Origin: Porticoccaceae bacterium
GTDB lineage: Bacteria > Pseudomonadota > Gammaproteobacteria > Pseudomonadales > Porticoccaceae
DNA: 64,000 nucleotides
NCBI GenBank assembly: GCA_024644595.1
Contig: JAHEHL010000002.1
Span: 413,774-477,773 of the forward strand
Direction of reading: 5' to 3'
The translations under genes were made by a program, and so were the position numbers. A model generated the notes under the pieces. That model was not told the origin of the DNA. It did not search any database and saw only the letters and a list, made by a program, of their open reading frames with translations. Positions 29,370 through 44,419 of this stretch are shown here, piece after piece (position 1 is the first letter of the stretch; each line of letters starts with the position of its first letter).

Positions 29370-30139
29370 TGGACTTACTAGTCAGCGAGGTCGTGCAACG
29401 CTTTTATACCCTGCTCTGGCCAATGATCAGAATCTCCGCCTTTCTGTTGGCCGCACCATTCTTTTCTCTGCGCGCTGTGAGCGTGCGTATTCGCGTACTG
29501 TTGGCAGTGCTGTTAACCCTGATGGTATATCCGCTGGTTGAGTGGCCGCTGATCGATCCTTACTCGGCAGCCGGTCTGCGTGAAATATTTAACCAGGTGC
29601 TGATTGGTACCGTTATGGGCATGCTGTTGCAGATCGTCAATGCTGCTCTGGTAGTTGGTGGTCAGGCGGTTTCCGGCTCGATGGGATTAGGCATGGCCAA
29701 TATGGTCGACCCGAATATGGGTAACGTCCCGGTTATCTCGCAGTTTTTTATTATTTGTTCGACACTGATTTTTATGGGTTTGGGTGGCCATGTTGTGGTT
29801 ATTACTCTGATATTGGAGAGCTTTAAATCGCTGCCTATAGGCCAGATGTTGGCGCCTGATATGTTGATGGCCGTGCTGCTGCAGTGGAGTGCCATGATGT
29901 TTCTCGGGGCCCTGCTGCTGGCGTTGCCAATCATGGTTAGTCTGTTGTTCGTCAATATTGGTGTCGGAGTGATTACCCGCGCGGCCCCGGCACTGAATAT
30001 TTTTGCGGTTGGTTTCCCGGCTATGATTATGGCCGGCATGTTATTGCTGGCCATGTCGATGTCGAGTATTGGCTATCGCATTCAGTGGTTGTGGCGACAG
30101 TCATTTGAAGTTGTTGGCCAGGCCTTGGGGGTGACTTGA
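29369..30139 (+). CDS. fliR: Flagellar export gate protein FliR
   Basis: FliR completes the FliPQR gate spiral. The 256-aa product has about six hydrophobic helices, with RISAFLLAAPFFSLRAVSVRIRVLLAVLLTL near the N-terminus, VVGGQAVSGSMGLGMANMVDPN in the middle and NIFAVGFPAMIMAGMLLLAMS near the end. Family length. It overlaps fliQ and flhB by one base each, indicating coupled translation of the whole gate. Confidence 0.97.
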   Translation: MDLLVSEVVQRFYTLLWPMIRISAFLLAAPFFSLRAVSVRIRVLLAVLLTLMVYPLVEWPLIDPYSAAGLREIFNQVLIGTVMGMLLQIVNAALVVGGQAVSGSMGLGMANMVDPNMGNVPVISQFFIICSTLIFMGLGGHVVVITLILESFKSLPIGQMLAPDMLMAVLLQWSAMMFLGALLLALPIMVSLLFVNIGVGVITRAAPALNIFAVGFPAMIMAGMLLLAMSMSSIGYRIQWLWRQSFEVVGQALGVT

Positions 30140-31305
30140 TGGCAGAGAAAGATACCAGCGAAGAACGCAGCGAAGAGCCCACCGCCAAGCGCCTTGAGAA
30201 GGCGCGGGAAGACGGCCAGGTGGCGCGCTCTCAAGAGCTGTCAGTTGCAGCCATGATGATTGGCGTAGCCTTCTTTTTATATCTTTTTGGTGGCTATTTT
30301 ATCAGCCGGCTAACCACGGTATTTGCCTCCGGTTTCAGCTTCGATCGCAAAGCGGTTTTCGCGGAAAACCTTCTCGCTCCGGCCTTTGGTCGACAGGCGC
30401 TGGACAGCATGCTGGTGGTTGTGCCGATATTTGTTCTCGCCGTAATTATTGCTATTGCTGCCGCCGGCTCAATGGGCGGCTATATCTTTTCGTTAAAATC
30501 CATTGCTCCCAAGGGCAGCAAGCTCAATCCGCTCTCCGGGTTGAAACGCATGTTCGGCACCAAGGCAGTCGTTGATCTGAGTAAAGCGTTAAGCAAGTTT
30601 GGTCTGGTCGCCTGCGTTTTATATTTGGTGGTGAGTGAAAATTTTTCCAGTTTGCTGCAGCTAGGCTTTATGGAATTGGAACCCGCCATGCAAGAGGCGG
30701 GGCGGATAATTGGTTTCGGCACGGTGTTGGTCACGTTAACACTGCTTATCGCTGCGGCTATTGATGTTCCCTATCAGCTGCATGTGTTTAACAAGCAGAT
30801 GAAAATGACTAAAAAAGAGATCAAGGACGAAATGAAGGATACCGAGGGACGACCCGAGGTGAAGGCACAGATACGTCGCAAGCAGCGCGAGATCGCCAGT
30901 GGCATGATGATGGCCGCAGTCGCTGATGCCGATGTCGTGATCGTCAATCCGGAACACTTTGCTGTCGCCTTGAGTTACGATCCATCGAAAGATGGCGCGC
31001 CCATTATGGTCGCCAAAGGTGCTGATTTTCTCGCTCAGGGTATTCGTGAGCGCGCCAAAGAAGAGGGCGTGCCAATATTTTCTGCACCGGCGCTCGCGCG
31101 CTCCATATTTTATACCACCGAAATTAATCAGGCGGTCCCCGAATCGCTGTACTACGCCGTGGCTCAGGTGATAGCCTATATCTTCAATCTCAACAGTTTC
31201 CAGCGCGGAGCCAGAGCGGCGAAGAGACCCAACCCCAAAGTGCCGGAAAATATGCGCTACAACGCTGACGGCACGTTGGTCAGCGGGCCCACTGTAGAGC
31301 CGTAA
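30139..31305 (+). CDS. flhB: Flagellar export switch protein FlhB
   Basis: FlhB switches export from hook to filament substrates after self-cleavage. The 388-aa product has an N-terminal charged segment (SEERSEEPTAKRLEKAREDGQVARSQEL), four membrane helices (about 30-215), the linker IKDEMKDTEGRPEVKAQIRRKQRE, and a cytoplasmic autocleavage domain. The cleavage site reads NPEH rather than the common NPTH (about residue 272). ATG 30139 overlaps the fliR stop. It is followed after 40 bases by the unknown SPOR gene. Confidence 0.96.
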   Translation: MAEKDTSEERSEEPTAKRLEKAREDGQVARSQELSVAAMMIGVAFFLYLFGGYFISRLTTVFASGFSFDRKAVFAENLLAPAFGRQALDSMLVVVPIFVLAVIIAIAAAGSMGGYIFSLKSIAPKGSKLNPLSGLKRMFGTKAVVDLSKALSKFGLVACVLYLVVSENFSSLLQLGFMELEPAMQEAGRIIGFGTVLVTLTLLIAAAIDVPYQLHVFNKQMKMTKKEIKDEMKDTEGRPEVKAQIRRKQREIASGMMMAAVADADVVIVNPEHFAVALSYDPSKDGAPIMVAKGADFLAQGIRERAKEEGVPIFSAPALARSIFYTTEINQAVPESLYYAVAQVIAYIFNLNSFQRGARAAKRPNPKVPENMRYNADGTLVSGPTVEP

Positions 31306-31345: not shown

Positions 31346-32875
31346 ATGAGAGAAGATCAGACAGAGCCGACCTTTGAATTCCAGGAATGGTTTGACGGGG
31401 GTGATATTTTTTGCCGTCCGAAAGACAAAAAACGGCTGCTTTCAGCCGTAGAGGCAATTGTTGAAAACGATCTCGGTGTTGCCGTAATCGGTTCCAATGA
31501 AGCGATTCTGGACCATTATTACCGTATGTTGGTGTCACGCATTCGTGATCACGAACACTTCAAGCTGGAAATGTTTCTGCCAGTCACGACCGACAGCTTG
31601 CTGACGCGTTTCAATGAAATGCTTGCCGAAATCAGTATGGAGCAAGCTGCCGCTCCTCCCGCGGACGATCAATTGGTACGCCTGTTGGTGATCAACGATG
31701 CGCGCACGATCAATGAGGAACAGTGGAGTCTTTTGGCAAGGTTGTTATCAGATTTCCCCGGGGTCAATGTGCGTCTGATACTGGTGATCAACAAGTCAGG
31801 CTGGCCGGCCCATGAAAATCTTTTAAACACGCTGGGACGTCGAATGCATCGCTGGGTTGTTGAAGCCCCGGCGATTACGGAAGCGCGTGAACTGCTGGAT
31901 GCTGCCGCAGAGAATGGCTATCAAACTGAAACCGAAGCTCTGCTGATCGATGCCGGTTTAGGCGCAGTCGTCAGTAGTCGACAGGATAGCCGTGAGGAAG
32001 AAGATGACCCGGACCTGCCGCAGTTGCCAGAGCTGGATGTGGATGTCTTGATTGGCGCCACTGCCGACGACGAGTTTTTAGACGACGCTAATACCCCGGC
32101 GGGAAGAGGTTGGTTGTGGCCCACGTTGATGTTTGTCAGCATAAGCGCCGCGCTGTCGTTGCTGATGGTCAGCTGGCTCTACCCGGGTTATCTGACCACA
32201 GATTCCTCGCTGCAGGCGGACCCGCAAGGACTATCTTCCGAGACAAAAGTTGAATCCACCGGTTACCGTATCGAAGCTATTACACTACCCACCGCTGAAG
32301 ACCTTGAAGCTAAGCGCCGGCAAGTCCAGCGCCAGGAGGCTGAAGCGCTTGCGGCACCAATAGACGTTGCTGAAGAGTCCGACCTAACCTCAGAGCAGGC
32401 AGCGCCAATCACAGCGGAGGTGGCAGCCGAACAGACTGCTGTCATCGAGGATAACCAAGGTAGTGAAGCCGCTGCAGAAGTGCTCCCGCTAACCGCGACA
32501 TCTGATGTCGCTGATGTCGATCAAGTAGCAGAGCCAGAGGCGCCGGCAGAATCTCTAGCCCCCCCAAGCCAACCACCAGCGATAGCGCCTGACAGCGCTG
32601 TTGAGCTTGTTTCGGCAGCGCCGTCGAGCAACTATTTTGTGCAGCATATTGTGCTGAGCAGTGAAGCGGCCGCCAGCGCATACATAAGGCGTTACACGGC
32701 GTTGAATAAGGCCAGAGTGGTACCCGTGCGGGTGGCACAAAAGAGTGCCTGGGCGGTTATTTCAGGTCCCTTTAGTTCGCGGCCTGCGGCAGCATCATTT
32801 ACTCAAAACCCAGGCGTACCGGATGACTACTGGATACGCAACGCAGCACAGCTACAGGCTATTTTGAGGCGTTAA
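31346..32875 (+). CDS. DamX-like membrane protein: degenerate AAA-type domain, one TM helix, C-terminal SPOR domain
   Basis: A 509-aa protein not normally found in flagellar operons. Domains: a cytoplasmic MshM/ExeA/DamX-like ATPase fold (about 1-205) with a Walker-B-like LVRLLVINDARTI, but the P-loop position reads VAVIGSNEAILDH and lacks GKS/T, so ATP binding is unlikely; an acidic linker; a single transmembrane helix (about 254-278); a periplasmic Ala/Glu/Pro-rich linker (about 290-420); and a SPOR-like domain (about 427-509; NYFVQHIVLSSEAAASAYIRRY and SAWAVISGPFSS). SPOR domains bind glycan strands stripped of stem peptides at division sites, and DamX acts in division, so a role in tying the flagellum to the pole or division site is my inference. 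It is 40 bases after flhB and 2 before the next gene. Confidence 0.7.
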   Translation: MREDQTEPTFEFQEWFDGGDIFCRPKDKKRLLSAVEAIVENDLGVAVIGSNEAILDHYYRMLVSRIRDHEHFKLEMFLPVTTDSLLTRFNEMLAEISMEQAAAPPADDQLVRLLVINDARTINEEQWSLLARLLSDFPGVNVRLILVINKSGWPAHENLLNTLGRRMHRWVVEAPAITEARELLDAAAENGYQTETEALLIDAGLGAVVSSRQDSREEEDDPDLPQLPELDVDVLIGATADDEFLDDANTPAGRGWLWPTLMFVSISAALSLLMVSWLYPGYLTTDSSLQADPQGLSSETKVESTGYRIEAITLPTAEDLEAKRRQVQRQEAEALAAPIDVAEESDLTSEQAAPITAEVAAEQTAVIEDNQGSEAAAEVLPLTATSDVADVDQVAEPEAPAESLAPPSQPPAIAPDSAVELVSAAPSSNYFVQHIVLSSEAAASAYIRRYTALNKARVVPVRVAQKSAWAVISGPFSSRPAAASFTQNPGVPDDYWIRNAAQLQAILRR

Positions 32876-32877
32876 TC

Positions 32878-33210
32878 ATGACGGATAATGCAGCTTCCGA
32901 ATTATTCACACAGGATGGCTCCGCCGGGTCGGTCAAGGTCAATCAAGGCGACCTTGTCGATCCACCAGCGCCTGCAAAAATAGTGTTTGTTCCGCTAAGT
33001 GAAGCGCGGCAGGCTAATCGCCTCACTCCGCCAGGGGTTTTAGCGTCAGGCCAGCGGCAGGCCTCTGAATCTGACAAAGTGATCAGACCTCTCTATCAAG
33101 GTGTCTTCAGCGGCCGTATTGCTAAAGTAAAACAGGAAACTGCCGATATTTTCCGTCAGTTGAGAGAATTAAAATTTACTGATGAGCAAGAGGCTTCGGA
33201 ACCGTTATGA
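32878..33210 (+). CDS. Uncharacterised 110-aa protein in the flhB operon
   Basis: I recognise no family. The product is soluble, without signal peptide or membrane segment: an acidic, disordered first half (Pro, Asp and Ser rich) and a basic, probably helical C-terminal half (IRPLYQGVFSGRIAKVKQETADIFRQLRELKFTDE in two pieces). Two bases separate it from the SPOR gene and it overlaps the next gene by 4 bases (ATGA), so the three are surely co-translated. Confidence 0.6.
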   Translation: MTDNAASELFTQDGSAGSVKVNQGDLVDPPAPAKIVFVPLSEARQANRLTPPGVLASGQRQASESDKVIRPLYQGVFSGRIAKVKQETADIFRQLRELKFTDEQEASEPL

Positions 33211-34175
33211 GTGATGAAACACCACAAGATGATCTACCTACCGAAACCAGCAGTGTTGAAACAGGCGTGACCGAAGCAGAGGACCAAGCGGCGGATGCAG
33301 GTAAAAATGCAGAGTTAAACAGAGAAGCCGTCGAAGACAGTGTCGACAGTCTCAGCGCCCGGATAGAGGAAATTTCTGCGCGCATCGATTCCCTGCTGCC
33401 CGGTGTCCTCGAAACGGCTGAAGCAGCCAATGGCGCTGCAGATGTTAATCGTGAAGCATCAGTCAATCTGAAGAAAGGCCTTGGCCAAATTCAGGCGCGA
33501 GTTGATTCGCTAAACAGTGCCAGTGAAAAAAGTGCGCTGCTCGCCAGTCGGGTAATGATTGGCGCAGTGTCCTCATTGGTTATCGCCGTGTTCGTCTATG
33601 GTTTTATTGCTTTCCAGCTGGCTGGTCGTGTGACGCAGGTCGATTCAATGCTGGTGGCCGTGAGCAAACGAATAGTCCAGATGAATAGCGCGCTCACTAC
33701 CTTTGAGCAACTGCGCTTTTCCATCGAGCAGCTTGCCGGACGGCAAGCACAATTTGCCGAGCGACAGATGCTTCTGGTCGAAGCAGTGTCACGCAGCGAA
33801 GTGTCGGCGCGTTCAATGGCGACTGAACTGCCGGGCCTGGCTGCTCAGCAGGTGGGTGAGAAAACCGATCAGGTTGTCGCACAGGTTGCCAATCTGGGTA
33901 AAGATCTCGAAGGTCAGGCTGCCGTTGTCGACAAACTGTCAAAAGCTGTGGGCGCATTGGGAACGCAGATGAAATCGCTTGAAGGGCGGGTGAGTAATGT
34001 GCAGAAGCTGAATGCCGATGTTGAGGCGTTAATCACTCTTGAGCGGGAAAACTATCTAGAGGTGCTGAGTCGCCAGGTCGCTCTGGAAGAGGCACGTCAG
34101 GCAGAGGATGCGCCGCCAGCGCAGGAACCGCCACCATCAATCGTTGTTTACCCGATCATTTCGGGTAGCAGATAA
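33207..34175 (+). CDS. Uncharacterised coiled-coil membrane protein in the flhB operon
   Basis: A 322-aa protein of unknown family. An acidic N-terminus (1-45) leads into a heptad-rich segment (about 45-110, SLSARIEEISARIDSLLP...), then a single transmembrane helix (about 117-138, IGAVSSLVIAVFVYGFIAFQL), a second long coiled coil (about 140-290) rich in Gln, Ala and Val, and a Pro-rich tail. There is no signal peptide, so the N-terminus is likely cytoplasmic and the large coiled coil periplasmic (or the reverse). It overlaps the 110-aa gene by 4 bases and ends convergently 18 bases from the next minus-strand gene. Confidence 0.62.
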   Translation: MSDETPQDDLPTETSSVETGVTEAEDQAADAGKNAELNREAVEDSVDSLSARIEEISARIDSLLPGVLETAEAANGAADVNREASVNLKKGLGQIQARVDSLNSASEKSALLASRVMIGAVSSLVIAVFVYGFIAFQLAGRVTQVDSMLVAVSKRIVQMNSALTTFEQLRFSIEQLAGRQAQFAERQMLLVEAVSRSEVSARSMATELPGLAAQQVGEKTDQVVAQVANLGKDLEGQAAVVDKLSKAVGALGTQMKSLEGRVSNVQKLNADVEALITLERENYLEVLSRQVALEEARQAEDAPPAQEPPPSIVVYPIISGSR

Positions 34176-34193: not shown

Positions 34194-34829
34194 TTATTCC
34201 TCATTGGGTTCGTCAATGGTGTCGTCGAGAGCCGCGCTTGACGGCATTTTGACTGCCGGGACGGATGACAACAGCTTGTCGGAGAACGACGGACTGTTGG
34301 TTAAGCCGGCTTTTACATAGAGCTCGCCAGCGATTTCATCGATATCGGTTCTCAAACGATTTACCGCGATCTCATCCGCTTCAAACGAAGCGTACCCAGC
34401 ATTGTAGAGTGTGGACGCACTCTGAGTGGGGAGCCATGATGAAATGGTTCCTCGCAGCGTAGAGATGTCCAGAGGGTTTTTTGCCGAGCCAGCCACTTTT
34501 CCTTCAGCAGCATCTTTCTTGCCCAGCTTAAACAGCATCTCGATATGGTTTTGCAGAACAAAAGCAAAGCGAGGCTTGAGTGCGACCAAGTCAGATTCGT
34601 TAAAGCCCTCGGGCACTTTGCCAGACATGGCATCCCACAGTGTTTTCCCGGACAGACCGAGAAAACCGTTGTCTGCAGTCGGCGCAGTTTGACTTTCTTC
34701 GCGGTCGTTTATCTGCAGTGAAATTATCTCCAGGCGTTTAACCCGATCGATCAGGTAGACCATTAAAATGATCGCGACGAGACTGCCGAAAAGTACAGCC
34801 AAAAGCAGTATGGTTGCCATATTTGTCAC
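34194..34829 (-). CDS. Uncharacterised membrane-anchored protein downstream of fliA
   Basis: A 211-aa protein I cannot assign. One N-terminal transmembrane helix (about residues 4-27, MATILLLAVLFGSLVAIILMVYLI) is followed by a mostly polar domain with LGLSGKTLWDAMSGKVPEGFNESDLVALKPRFAFVLQNHIEMLFKLGKKDA (given in pieces), which looks helical, and an acidic C-terminus. It lies 10 bases after the next gene and is the last of the flhA-flhF-fleN-fliA transcript. Confidence 0.62.
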   Translation of the reverse strand: MTNMATILLLAVLFGSLVAIILMVYLIDRVKRLEIISLQINDREESQTAPTADNGFLGLSGKTLWDAMSGKVPEGFNESDLVALKPRFAFVLQNHIEMLFKLGKKDAAEGKVAGSAKNPLDISTLRGTISSWLPTQSASTLYNAGYASFEADEIAVNRLRTDIDEIAGELYVKAGLTNSPSFSDKLLSSVPAVKMPSSAALDDTIDEPNEE

Positions 34830-34839
34830 CTATTGATTA

Positions 34840-35388
34840 CTAGTCGGAGCTTGTCTCCGCAGTTTCACTGTCGCCGCTGTCATCGTCACCGTCCTCATCA
34901 CTTTGGTCAGATTCTTCGAGCTCATCGCGGAGGAATTGAAGTGCGGTAAAGGACTCATCGAGACCCAGATCGAAACTGACCTTGTCGGCTAATTCCTGTG
35001 CCAGCTTCAGGGTCTCACTCGGACCGATGGATGCAGTTTGGTACATATTCCCCAGCACATACATCTCTTGCGCAAACTCCGATGGCACATAGGTATAGAC
35101 GGTTTCACTTTGCGTTTTAACGGTTTGAAACGGGCGCGGCTCAGGCATAGGGGGTGTTTCATTTCCCTCTGATGCGGCTGCCAGGCAGGCTGCCTGATAG
35201 GCCTCAGCCTGTTCTGCACCCTCGACAAAGACCTTGTCCAGGTGCACTCGGCAACGGCCGCCAATACGTGACTTAAAGATGCGCGATTCACGCGATACAC
35301 CGCTGAGTTCTGCTGCCTTCACATAAGATGCTTTGGCGCTTTCCATGGCTTTCTTTATCGCTCGATTTTTCAGTATTGGTAATACCAT
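34840..35388 (-). CDS. Uncharacterised soluble protein downstream of fliA
   Basis: A 182-aa protein without a recognised family. It has a basic, helical N-terminus (MVLPILKNRAIKKAMESAKASY), a middle region with KSRIGGRCRVHLDKVFVEGAEQAEAYQAACLAAAS, a segment rich in Tyr and Met (SETVYTYVPSEFAQEMYVLGNMYQTA) and a Ser/Asp/Glu-rich tail. No signal peptide or membrane segment. It starts 13 bases after the fliA stop, in the slot where cheY is usually found. Confidence 0.6.
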   Translation of the reverse strand: MVLPILKNRAIKKAMESAKASYVKAAELSGVSRESRIFKSRIGGRCRVHLDKVFVEGAEQAEAYQAACLAAASEGNETPPMPEPRPFQTVKTQSETVYTYVPSEFAQEMYVLGNMYQTASIGPSETLKLAQELADKVSFDLGLDESFTALQFLRDELEESDQSDEDGDDDSGDSETAETSSD

Positions 35389-37157: not shown

Positions 37158-38453
37158 TCAAACGAAATGAATCGGCAGTTGCGATAGAGCCTGCCCTGCA
37201 AGCGTCAATCCATTTAACGGGATTGCATCGTCAGCTATGGTTGGACGGACTGCAGCGACCGACAGCGGTACTGGATGATTCAGTAGCAGGTAGATAATTG
37301 CCCAGGGATGGGTGCCATCTTCAAAGCGCGAAAGCATCACTGAGTCCCATTGTCTGGTGTTCTGATTGAGCTGACGCCGAGCTGACGCTTCTGATGCATC
37401 GGCAGCGATCAGCAAATGTTTTTGGGCCTCTGGCAGCGCCTCATCAAGTTGACTGAGCTGGTGTTCAATATCCACGCCTGAGGTATCGATTATCACCAGC
37501 TTGCGCTCTCCAATTTCGGCCATCAGTTGGCTCAACATATCGATCGAGCTGGCCCGAAACGTGTCGACACCTGCCTGAGATCCGATCATTTGCATCTGTG
37601 ACCAGGCACCAATGCGGACATCATTGAAACTGATTAACGCAACGTTGTTTTCGCCATACTGCTGGGCCATCTGATTCGCGAGTCGTCCTGCCATGAGGGT
37701 TTTTCCTGCCCCTGAACTACCGGCAATAACATGCACACCCTGCATGTTGCTGAGTAAATCGACACTTTCCAACTCGTCGCCGATCGCAGAACTGATTTCA
37801 GCAATGGCCTGACCCATTGAGTCACTTTGGTTAATCACTTCGATTACTGACTCGCGCAGGCCAAGGGGCATGCCGGTTTCATTGAATGCCTCAATCAGAG
37901 GTCGCATCTCTTCGCTGACCGCCAGGGTGCCAGTCCAGGAATCTTTTTGCTGCGCCAGTTTGAATTCGTCGCGCATTACGCTTAATTCCTGTTTAACCAG
38001 ATCGACTATTTCACGGGCTTTTAAATACTCACGGTCCGCTGCCGCTTTGTAGTTTTCGCCATTTATGGCGTTAGTTACATTATCCATTGATAACCCTACC
38101 AGGGGATCCAGCGCTGGCATTTTTGCCGTCGTTCTGGTTTCCACCGGTTGCGATGCCGAGCCAAACACAATGCCGTTATCAGCTTCGTAAGCGCTGGCTT
38201 CTGACCCTTGGTGTCCGAGCACCTGTGTTTCCATAACGGCACTGAAGTTGGCGCTCGCATCAGCGTCTCTTGTCACGTCCGGTGTCTTGTTCAGGGCTGC
38301 TTTAACCTCTGATATCAGATCGATCGCGACAATAATTTCTGTTTGGCCCTTGACCTTGTTATTGGCGACAATCATTGCATCGTTGCCATAGAGGTTGAAT
38401 ACTTTTTCCATGGCGCTGCGGGTGTCACGGGCGAGAATGCGTTGTAGTTCCAT
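37158..38453 (-). CDS. flhF: Divergent flagellar GTPase FlhF
   Basis: FlhF is the SRP-like GTPase that places polar flagella. The 431-aa product keeps the family N-terminus (RILARDTRSAMEKVFNLYGNDAMIVANNKV), a natively loose B domain, the N-domain helices and an NG domain. But the GTPase motifs have drifted: G1 reads AGSSGAGKTLMAGRL (normally GPTGVGKTTTIAKL), the TYRIGA block reads DVRIGAWSQMQM, G3 reads DTSGV, and the G4 TKLD is replaced by SRFED (about residue 373). The C-terminus ends LSQLPIHFV. Function may be kept with weakened nucleotide handling. It lies between flhA (17 bases) and fleN. Confidence 0.88.
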   Translation of the reverse strand: MELQRILARDTRSAMEKVFNLYGNDAMIVANNKVKGQTEIIVAIDLISEVKAALNKTPDVTRDADASANFSAVMETQVLGHQGSEASAYEADNGIVFGSASQPVETRTTAKMPALDPLVGLSMDNVTNAINGENYKAAADREYLKAREIVDLVKQELSVMRDEFKLAQQKDSWTGTLAVSEEMRPLIEAFNETGMPLGLRESVIEVINQSDSMGQAIAEISSAIGDELESVDLLSNMQGVHVIAGSSGAGKTLMAGRLANQMAQQYGENNVALISFNDVRIGAWSQMQMIGSQAGVDTFRASSIDMLSQLMAEIGERKLVIIDTSGVDIEHQLSQLDEALPEAQKHLLIAADASEASARRQLNQNTRQWDSVMLSRFEDGTHPWAIIYLLLNHPVPLSVAAVRPTIADDAIPLNGLTLAGQALSQLPIHFV

Positions 38454-42571: not shown

Positions 42572-43018
42572 ATGCAACGTTTATGGAAGCGTGTAACAAC
42601 CAATATTGCAGCTGCATCGGTGCTTTTGCTGTGCTTGCTCAGTAGTAGCACCATGGAGGCTTCGGAAAATGCCGAGCGCGCACTGGCACAACTGGTAAAA
42701 GATGTGCGACGCTTGCAACCGACGTTGGCCGCAAACAAAAGCGAAGACGGTTACTACACCACGCGGCCAGGTGATACGGTGGATATGATTCTGCAAACCA
42801 TGTTGCCAAATATGCCGGTCAAAAAGGCCATCTTGCGGCAGGCATTGGTCAAGGCCAATCCCCATGCCTTTAAGCGCAGTAATCCGAACTGGATGTACGC
42901 CAACAAAAAGTTGCGCCTTCCTGGCGCTGACGATATCCACAATGTTATTTTTGTCGAGCAAGCGGAAAACAAAAAATCCAAACGTGATGAGCGCCTGAGT
43001 TGGGTTAAATACCCTTAG
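42572..43018 (+). CDS. Periplasmic protein with a FimV-like/LysM-like domain
   Basis: A 148-aa exported protein of unknown role. It has a signal peptide or N-terminal anchor (about residues 12-31, AAASVLLLCLLSSSTMEAS) and a single domain GYYTTRPGDTVDMILQTMLPNMPVKKAILRQALVKANPHAFKRSNPNWMYANKKLRLPG (read in parts). The spacing of GD, N..AF..SN.NW and G..L..P resembles the LysM-like N-terminal region of FimV/HubP, which anchors polar factors to peptidoglycan. It lies 22 bases after flgT, so a cell-wall contact role for the basal body is plausible but inferred. Confidence 0.65.
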   Translation: MQRLWKRVTTNIAAASVLLLCLLSSSTMEASENAERALAQLVKDVRRLQPTLAANKSEDGYYTTRPGDTVDMILQTMLPNMPVKKAILRQALVKANPHAFKRSNPNWMYANKKLRLPGADDIHNVIFVEQAENKKSKRDERLSWVKYP

Positions 43019-43088: not shown

Positions 43089-44138
43089 GTGCTTGGACCG
43101 GAGCTGATCAATTTCACTGTGCGCCCGACCCCGATTTTCCTCGAGGGCTCGGCGTCTATTCAGCTCACCCAGCAGGCGGCCAGAGATCTTGGTCTTAAGG
43201 ACGGACAGGTGGTGCAAGGTGTGATTGCCGCGCGCGGTGATCTGCTGAAATTGCTGGTTAATAATCAAGAACTGGATTGGCCGGTTAGTGGCCGATTCAA
43301 TGCTGGGGATAAGCTAGACTTCAGAGTCGAGCAAAGCATTTTTGGCCGCGCACTGGTTCCCCTCGGCCGCCCTGTCGCGCGCGCAGCCGCGCAGCCACTC
43401 TCCCCCAGATTGCTCAGTCTAATGCATCGTCCAGCGCAGCCTTCAATGCTGACCGGCCTGTTTAAACCCGGCGGTCTCGACGCAGTGGTGGCACAGCTCG
43501 GCGCCCATGAGCAACCGCTGCTGGCTAGTCTTATGTTGTCGACGACTAAACTGTCGCCCCAGGAGATCAGGCGCGGTCTGCTCAACTCAGGGCTCTTTGG
43601 TGAGGCGCGCATTGCCGCCGGCATTCCAGTGCAGGGACCTGATATCAAACAGCTACTGCGTCTATTAATACGCAGCATTCCGCCGCAAGGTGCGGCCGCC
43701 GCAGAGCTGGATAGTGCGATCGACGAAGTCGAAAGCAAGCAGCTGGACAGTTTACAGGCGCAGCAATCGAGAGAGCTTAACTACAGCTTTGTGCTGCCCT
43801 TTGCCGATGCCAATCCAGTCGAAATGGAGCTCTACCGTGAACCTGCCAAGGGCGTGGATGGTGCAGAGGAATGGGTGATCAATCTACACACCGAATCCCC
43901 CAGCCTCGGCAAGCTGTGGTTAAAGACCACGCTCAAATCGGCTAGCGCAATCGAAATGATTATGTGGGCGCCTTATGGCAACGTTGCGCAGCGTGCTCAG
44001 GCTTCGGTAAGTGAGCTGGAGTCCGAACTGCAGCGCTTTGGTCTGACACTGCAAAAACTCGAAGTGCTCAGTGCTCCGCGCCCTGCACTGAGTGATGGGT
44101 TGAGCGGCAGTGGCCAAGTTGTGGATGTCAGCACATGA
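43089..44138 (+). CDS. Second FliK-like hook-length control protein
   Basis: A 349-aa protein with a FliK-type C-terminal domain (about 235-330: EEWVINLHTESPSLGKLWLKTTLKSASAIEMIMWAPYGNVAQRAQASVSELESELQRFGLTLQKLEVL, read in parts), preceded by a helical Leu/Ala-rich region and an N-terminal beta segment. There is no signal peptide. The GTG start at 43089 has an AGG nine bases upstream. It overlaps the following FlhB-C-like gene by 4 bases (ATGA). It is not the same as the FliK at 24112, which has the full low-complexity ruler. Confidence 0.75.
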   Translation: MLGPELINFTVRPTPIFLEGSASIQLTQQAARDLGLKDGQVVQGVIAARGDLLKLLVNNQELDWPVSGRFNAGDKLDFRVEQSIFGRALVPLGRPVARAAAQPLSPRLLSLMHRPAQPSMLTGLFKPGGLDAVVAQLGAHEQPLLASLMLSTTKLSPQEIRRGLLNSGLFGEARIAAGIPVQGPDIKQLLRLLIRSIPPQGAAAAELDSAIDEVESKQLDSLQAQQSRELNYSFVLPFADANPVEMELYREPAKGVDGAEEWVINLHTESPSLGKLWLKTTLKSASAIEMIMWAPYGNVAQRAQASVSELESELQRFGLTLQKLEVLSAPRPALSDGLSGSGQVVDVST

Positions 44139-44419
44139 GCACCTATAAACCGCCTCGTCGGGCAGTCGCACTTGAGTATGGTCAGCGCTCGGCGCCCGTG
44201 ATGACGGCCAAAGGCCAGGGCGAGCTTGCCGAGCTGATTATCGAAGAGGCAAAAAAGCAGGGCATTCACATTGCCGAAGATCCGCAGTTGGTGGGATTGC
44301 TTGGGCAGCTTAAAGTTAATGACGAAATCCCCGAGAGTCTCTATGTTGCGGTGTCTGTAATTCTGTCCTGGGTTTACTGGCTAAAAGGAATGGAGCCGGG
44401 TGACGAAAAAGTCAGGTAG
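44135..44419 (+). CDS. FlhB C-terminal-domain-like protein (FlhX type)
   Basis: A 94-aa cytoplasmic protein matching only the part of FlhB after the NPTH cleavage site: RAVALEYGQRSAPVMTAKGQGELAELIIEEAKKQGIHIAEDPQLVGLLGQLKVNDEIPESLYVAVSVILSWVYW aligns with FAVALSYD...GAPIMVAKGADFLAQGIRERAKEEGVPIFSAPALARSIFY...IPESLYYAVAQVIAYIF of the FlhB encoded here (read in parts). Such free-standing paralogues can substitute for the cleaved FlhB fragment. It is coupled to the FliK-like gene before it. Confidence 0.85.
   Translation: MSTYKPPRRAVALEYGQRSAPVMTAKGQGELAELIIEEAKKQGIHIAEDPQLVGLLGQLKVNDEIPESLYVAVSVILSWVYWLKGMEPGDEKVR

Follow-up and report, generated by a model that had tools for sequence, protein, structure and literature searches.

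What would a protein built like DamX do inside a flagellar operon? The question is raised by a gene of the window, that is, the whole stretch of 64,000 nucleotides from a Porticoccaceae bacterium analysed here. The gene (31346..32875, + strand) encodes 509 amino acids from an ATG start and lies directly downstream of flhB (30136..31305, + strand; TIGR00328, 367 bits). A previous sequence-only reading of the window had given this open reading frame and a gap of 40 bases between the two genes, both of which are borne out, since flhB ends at 31305 and the DamX-like frame starts at 31346.

Architecture and kinship with DamX

The layout described in that reading, an AAA+-fold domain without a P-loop followed by one transmembrane helix and a SPOR domain, was confirmed. 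In an AlphaFold2 model built from 24 family members, the N-terminal domain adopts an alpha/beta structure (block pLDDT 75-95 for aa 21-210) and is followed by a helix at aa 257-278 and, beyond a linker of low confidence, by a SPOR fold at aa 430-508 (block pLDDT 91-97). The putatively cytoplasmic AAA+-fold domain, devoid of ATP-site residues (aa ~17-220; 31394..32005, + strand), is recognized from this model, from fold matches in the PDB and from its match to a profile of DamX AAA domains. The best Foldseek matches of the modelled domain are Cdc6/ORC and RFC (E 6e-7 to 1e-4), and VIA-align yields Z scores of 10.6-12.5, including RFC chain 8zwo_C (Z 11.3, rmsd 5.2, 177 aligned), with DamX, GspA and MshM absent among the VIA-align matches. 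Sequence searches of the PDB retrieved chance-level matches only for the N-domain profile (E 0.5-0.9) and no match for the SPOR stretch alone. The transmembrane helix (32114..32179, + strand) comes from the model, and its predicted N-in orientation from basic residues: in 25 of 28 flagellar copies (one of them without a clear transmembrane segment), lysine and arginine are more frequent on the N-terminal side of the most hydrophobic stretch than on its C-terminal side. We therefore predict a single membrane pass with the N-terminal part inside, as in DamX; topology and glycan binding are taken here from what is known of the family.

The predicted periplasmic SPOR domain (32624..32872, + strand) is assigned to the DamX type from Pfam, the model, a tree and an alignment. 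It belongs to PF05036 (aa 427-483, 26.5 bits for a cut-off of 21), and the Pfam scan of the protein gave nothing else above cut-off: no AAA_22, no DUF2802 and no hydrolase domain. In the alignment, it keeps the glycan-contact glutamine (Q433) and the DamX-type tryptophan (W496), the former known to contact glycan in RlpA and the latter to be needed by DamX (PMC6895207, in excerpt). Two NCBIfam matches, to RlpA around the SPOR domain (E 2.4e-5) and to the DNA polymerase III delta' subunit at aa 111-199 (E 0.0014), lie far under their cut-offs and were rejected, and PADLOC found nothing.

The ATP site has decayed. The alignment places Leu55 at the lysine position of the degenerate Walker A (aa 49-60, GSNEAILDHYYR; 31490..31525, + strand), within the stretch GSNEAILDHYY, and Asn117 (31694..31696, + strand) replaces the first Walker B aspartate. 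The Walker A lysine is found in none of the 28 flagellar copies examined versus all eight DamX proteins, and the first Walker B aspartate has become asparagine in 23 of those 28 copies whereas seven of the eight DamX retain it. A His-Tyr motif now occupies the former P-loop site, with Tyr58 invariant and His57 nearly so across 24 aligned copies. An aroB-linked DamX (G115) also combines a poor P-loop with a Walker B asparagine, so that motif decay also occurs outside the flagellar copies. We regard the protein as a clear case of an ATPase fold retained after loss of its ATP site.

The label “DamX-like” of the sequence-only reading proved apt, as the SPOR domain is of the DamX type in the tree and the N-domain profile matches DamX. 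The protein had also been likened to MshM/ExeA (GspA), which consist of an AAA+ domain, one transmembrane helix and a periplasmic wall-binding domain. However, GspA carries another wall-binding domain where the flagellar protein has SPOR, and the P-loop domain of the ExeA/MshM ATPases was not found in the window protein, which differs by the absence of both the Walker A lysine and an AAA_22 match. By contrast, the aroB-linked DamX of Pseudomonadales is composed of an AAA+ domain, a transmembrane helix and a SPOR domain, and shares with the flagellar protein this domain order, the SPOR type and the N-domain profile match, the two differing in the Walker A lysine and in their location after aroB or flhB. 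E. coli DamX, unlike the Pseudomonadales form, shows no AAA+ domain in its sequence. In the window's genome, aroB lies on another contig, without DamX downstream.

In a SPOR tree of 48 rows (without three duplicates, a cut domain and the SPOR matches that had no stored locus), the flagellar copies (97/87), DamX (82/86) and a lipoprotein-like group (82/85) share one side of a 99/99 branch, across which lie the FtsN, DedD and RlpA types; the names DedD, FtsN, RlpA, gltB and hemE in relatives' genomes were assigned from sequence and neighbours. Comparisons with hhalign gave for the flagellar SPOR E values of 5.7e-9 to DamX, 3.7e-9 to the lipoprotein-like group and 1.3e-6 to a mixed set, versus 0.0017 to 0.3 for the FtsN, DedD and RlpA sets. 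A lipoprotein-like protein with a DamX-type SPOR is encoded in the window's own genome (C7; L005, 1441-2154) and also in G018 and G189 of the family. Because the flagellar SPOR is equally near this group, descent from DamX rests jointly on SPOR type, domain order and the N-terminal domain. For the latter, a profile of six DamX AAA domains matches over 178 columns (E 8e-5, probability 61%), versus E 0.26 or worse for six window proteins used as controls; these were run as single sequences, a weaker query than the DamX profile, and DamX sequences taken singly gave E 0.0016 to 0.19. Across 390 genomes of the order, the flagellar N-domain profile matched 26 proteins at E up to 0.001 and nothing else: 24 flagellar copies, distributed in the families f1, f15, f40 and f44, and two aroB-linked DamX, both weakly (E 3.4e-4 and 9.5e-4). 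E. coli DamX scores far over the cut-off of the NCBIfam DamX model NF008153. Three aroB-linked DamX stay under that cut-off with E values of 8e-8 or better, and the window protein gives no match to the model at E up to 1. Judging from its sequence, the product of the window gene is a paralogue of DamX.

Distribution and flagellar lineage

A survey of flhB neighbourhoods, suggested in the sequence-only reading as a check on its flagellar association, places the DamX-like gene beside flhB in four families; an adjacency so widely conserved excludes chance, and the flagellar link of the protein is strong. Of the 24 copies in the order, 23 visibly adjoin flhB and the remaining one begins at a contig end. 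The gene occurs in 18 of 56 relatives searched (window's genome counted) and in 17 of the 35 members of the genus, where all 16 genomes with a complete flhB and the gene carry it directly downstream, the 17th (G002) being at a contig edge. Among the 18 genus genomes without the gene, 15 have no flhB match; the other three comprise G032, with a short FlhB C-terminal match only, G013, cut inside flhB, and G007, a true exception. In the latter (L087, 9325-10236), a gene of the orf322 type directly follows flhB, with no DamX-like gene between them. In a class-wide search of 370 genomes, the N-domain profile matched no other copy than that of the window. The family therefore seems restricted to this order, although the search covered few genomes per order and the profile is weak for distant copies.

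The closest named relatives of the protein come from a Porticoccaceae MAG (64% identity over aa 1-330) and from the marine gammaproteobacterium HTCC2207 (53%), both with the same flagellar gene order. An identical copy of the HTCC2207 protein is encoded by G211, of the window's genus, which assigns the window to the genus of HTCC2207, treated under the SAR92 clade (PMC10746254, in excerpt). A search of the open literature, with subscription papers mostly outside its scope, brought up no description of a flagellar SPOR protein in the portions of text available.

In an FlhB tree of 32 chosen rows, two of them partial, the 20 gene-bearing systems form one clade (100/100) versus 11 systems without the gene, and the FlhB of G007 falls inside the clade though its genome lacks the gene. 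This lineage also has an unusual FlhF. The diverged FlhF pointed out in the sequence-only reading (37158..38453, - strand) is indeed an SRP-type GTPase that scores 107.7 bits with TIGR03499 for a cut-off of 174.15 and has altered motifs: the P-loop is kept, SRFED stands where TKxDE is expected and the IPEDL-like box is missing. FlhF lies under the family cut-off in all 12 gene-bearing systems (52-134 bits, cut-off 174) and over it in seven of eight systems without the DamX-like gene, G046 being the exception; the FlhF of G007 scores 36 bits. The C-terminal IPEDL-like box is present in 8/8 of the others and in 0/13 of the lineage (G007 counted). Nevertheless, lineage FlhF may still work, since the P-loop remains in 12 of the 13 aligned, together with some other motifs (most f1 and f15 sequences show a remnant resembling RxGA, and those of f15 a TKxDE-like motif). 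As FlhF divergence and the DamX-like gene have a single common ancestry, their co-occurrence amounts to about one event.

Of 12 gene-bearing genomes, only one yielded FipA, which there sits with a second, canonical system; FipA was found in eight of 12 genomes without the DamX-like gene (one below cut-off), the other four also being without it. The DUF2802 model (PF10975), which matches nine of 24 genomes tested, was not found in the window's genome, and a FipA partner for the DamX-like protein was discarded as none was found in this genome. Two matches to FimV_core (TIGR03505) exist there, both outside the DamX-like protein, and a separate FimV is present. A natural comparison is offered by G739 (L170, L212, L213), with two flagellar systems, one of each type: that on C52 combines a diverged FlhF (95.4 bits) with the pseudo-AAA+ gene, orf322, orf182 and orf211, and that on C32 has a canonical FlhF (204.6 bits) and FipA, no DamX-like gene being found there. 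G033 contains a further flhB copy (C150, 48% identical).

Possible role and alternatives

SPOR domains bind peptide-free glycan, which is made by amidases, is enriched at the septum and marks the poles (PMC6895207 and PMC5285504, in excerpt). Because SPOR domains bind this glycan and that of the DamX-like protein keeps the glutamine and tryptophan, we propose a membrane scaffold that would contact the septal wall outside and flagellar proteins inside. The AAA+ domain of a DamX paralogue would have turned into a cytoplasmic binding module once its ATP site was lost; the protein would sit in the inner membrane with its N terminus inside, its periplasmic SPOR domain would bind the peptide-free glycan of the septum and young pole, and the scaffold would recruit or retain the early flagellar apparatus there, perhaps together with the products of orf322, orf211 and orf182, in a lineage with a diverged FlhF and a missing FipA. 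We hold with moderate confidence that the protein is such a flagellum-dedicated DamX paralogue, an ATP-independent membrane scaffold that connects the assembly of the flagellum with septal or polar peptidoglycan; its polar targeting and its partners are what we infer. The sequence-only reading is thus upheld for architecture, DamX kinship, flagellar association and diverged FlhF, and its suggestion of a link between the flagellum and the new pole or division stays plausible, although weakened by copies without SPOR in f44.

These copies bear directly on one alternative. SPOR is kept in 22 aligned copies from f1 and f15 (the f15 copy of G149 is missing from the PF05036 matches) and has diverged in two f40 copies (17.1 and 17.3 bits for a Pfam cut-off of 21), which profile comparison still calls SPOR (E 6.6e-9). 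In f44, the copies of G114 and G324, available as full sequences, end after the transmembrane helix and have no SPOR, G706 has a frame of 311 aa, the same length as these SPOR-less copies, and the copy of G739 (208 aa) has neither SPOR nor a clear transmembrane segment. As f44 copies are reduced to the pseudo-AAA+ domain with a transmembrane tail or less, the cytoplasmic domain is the common core and has a job of its own. This keeps alive an export- or assembly-side scaffold, in which the pseudo-AAA+ domain would be an adaptor at FlhB or the export gate and SPOR a secondary anchor that some lineages drop. Although adjacency to flhB wherever visible fits this explanation, neighbourhood is no proof of contact, and SPOR was probably ancestral and lost in f44, since the f40 branch, with its diverged SPOR, splits from all the other gene-bearing families in the FlhB tree (a modest support of 85/81 for these others); we thus consider it unlikely.

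A role as motor anchor seems to us similarly doubtful. SPOR would then tie the basal body to peptidoglycan or help to open the wall for the rod, without any choice of pole, which would suit its binding to peptidoglycan, the proposal of AMIN domains of the pilus secretin as anchors (PMC5285504, in excerpt) and the FlgP-like (LPP20) and weakly FlgT-like genes in its vicinity, which point to an elaborate motor. However, the septum-enriched, peptide-free glycan bound by SPOR is a spatial mark and not a general wall anchor (PMC6895207, in excerpt), and Pfam detects no domain in the protein that could cut the wall.

The flagellar copy might also be the cell's own DamX relocated into the flagellar operon. 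The aroB loci of ten genomes contain a DamX with SPOR in four cases (G040, G039, G054 and G114), a DamX without SPOR in two (G048 and G149, both from f15) and no DamX in four (G000, G023, G018 and G189). In the two f15 loci (L140, 1426-2253, and L141, 1704-2486), the aroB-linked protein keeps a P-loop AAA+ domain and a transmembrane helix and has lost SPOR. SPOR loss is thus reciprocal, the f15 flagellar copy having the domain and, in G114 of f44, the aroB-linked copy having it and the flagellar one not. A relocated DamX still acting in division would fit G000, G023, G048 and G149, where the flagellar copy is the sole AAA-TM-SPOR protein found as the aroB-linked DamX is absent or SPOR-less, but it appears highly improbable given that G018, the one flhB-less sister examined at aroB, has neither DamX nor a flagellar copy, that G114 has a full DamX plus a flagellar copy and that the Walker A lysine is gone in every flagellar copy examined.

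The preferred reading, a scaffold directed to septal or polar wall, has counterparts in known systems. HubP/FimV likewise is a membrane protein and polar-machine landmark with a peptidoglycan-binding domain and a cytoplasmic scaffold (PMC12918733 and PMC11620751, in excerpt), but FimV uses LysM-like and TPR domains where the DamX-like protein has SPOR and a pseudo-AAA+ domain. FipA, the DUF2802 partner of FlhF, is also a membrane protein of polar flagellates with a gene in the flagellar region, a single transmembrane helix and a cytoplasmic domain (PMC11620751, in excerpt), although DUF2802 is absent from the DamX-like protein. PilQ takes the type IV pilus machine to future poles by means of its wall-binding AMIN domain (PMC5285504, in excerpt), carried by a secretin instead of an inner-membrane pseudo-ATPase. 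How FlhF recognizes the pole is a long-standing question, its mechanism being described as enigmatic (PMC11620751, in excerpt). If our proposal is true, a reader of septal wall derived from division would physically and directly link division and flagellum placement. More speculatively, and rather improbably in our opinion, the peptide-free glycan of division might have replaced FlhF/FipA as the address of the new flagellum in one gammaproteobacterial flagellar lineage: DamX would have been duplicated, its ATPase killed and its SPOR kept as address reader, while FlhF would have drifted from its GTPase role and FipA would have been lost. As SAR92 is an abundant marine group with isolates (PMC10746254, in excerpt), the placement idea is open to experiment.

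Neighbouring genes

The DamX-like gene is followed in the same gene run by orf110 (32878..33210, + strand), small and fast evolving, which starts two bases after its stop, and by orf322 (33207..34175, + strand), which overlaps orf110 by 4 bases and encodes a transmembrane coiled-coil protein. A scan for promoters and terminators gave four promoter-like sites (4.8 in shuffles) and 13 terminator-like ones (7.2 in shuffles), none of them in the gap after flhB. On the opposite strand lie orf211 (34194..34829), with a long N-terminal helix, probably transmembrane, and a compact domain according to its model, and orf182 (34840..35388), placed after fliA. None of orf322, orf211 and orf182 has a Pfam or NCBIfam match above cut-off. 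All three reappear in other families, in flagellar clusters belonging to this lineage, though not all in every genome: genes similar to orf322 lie close to the DamX-like one in f1, f15 and G739 of f44, and in f40 are recognized by position and appearance only; orf211 was found in f15, f40 and f44, and orf182 in f15, f44 and G781 of f40, neither being found in two members of the window's genus, G029 and G020. A FipA-like identity for orf211 was rejected, as the similarity is one of outline only, with a non-significant best PDB match (E 0.12) and no Pfam family.

Elsewhere in the window, the frame at 42572-43018 (+ strand), beside the flgT- and flgP-like genes, encodes a protein of 148 aa that seems to have a signal peptide and matches FimV_core weakly (27.6 bits, under the cut-off); it is possibly a small wall binder of the LysM type. 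A short paralogue of the C-terminal part of FlhB only lies at 44135-44419 (+ strand), beside a weakly FliK-like gene.
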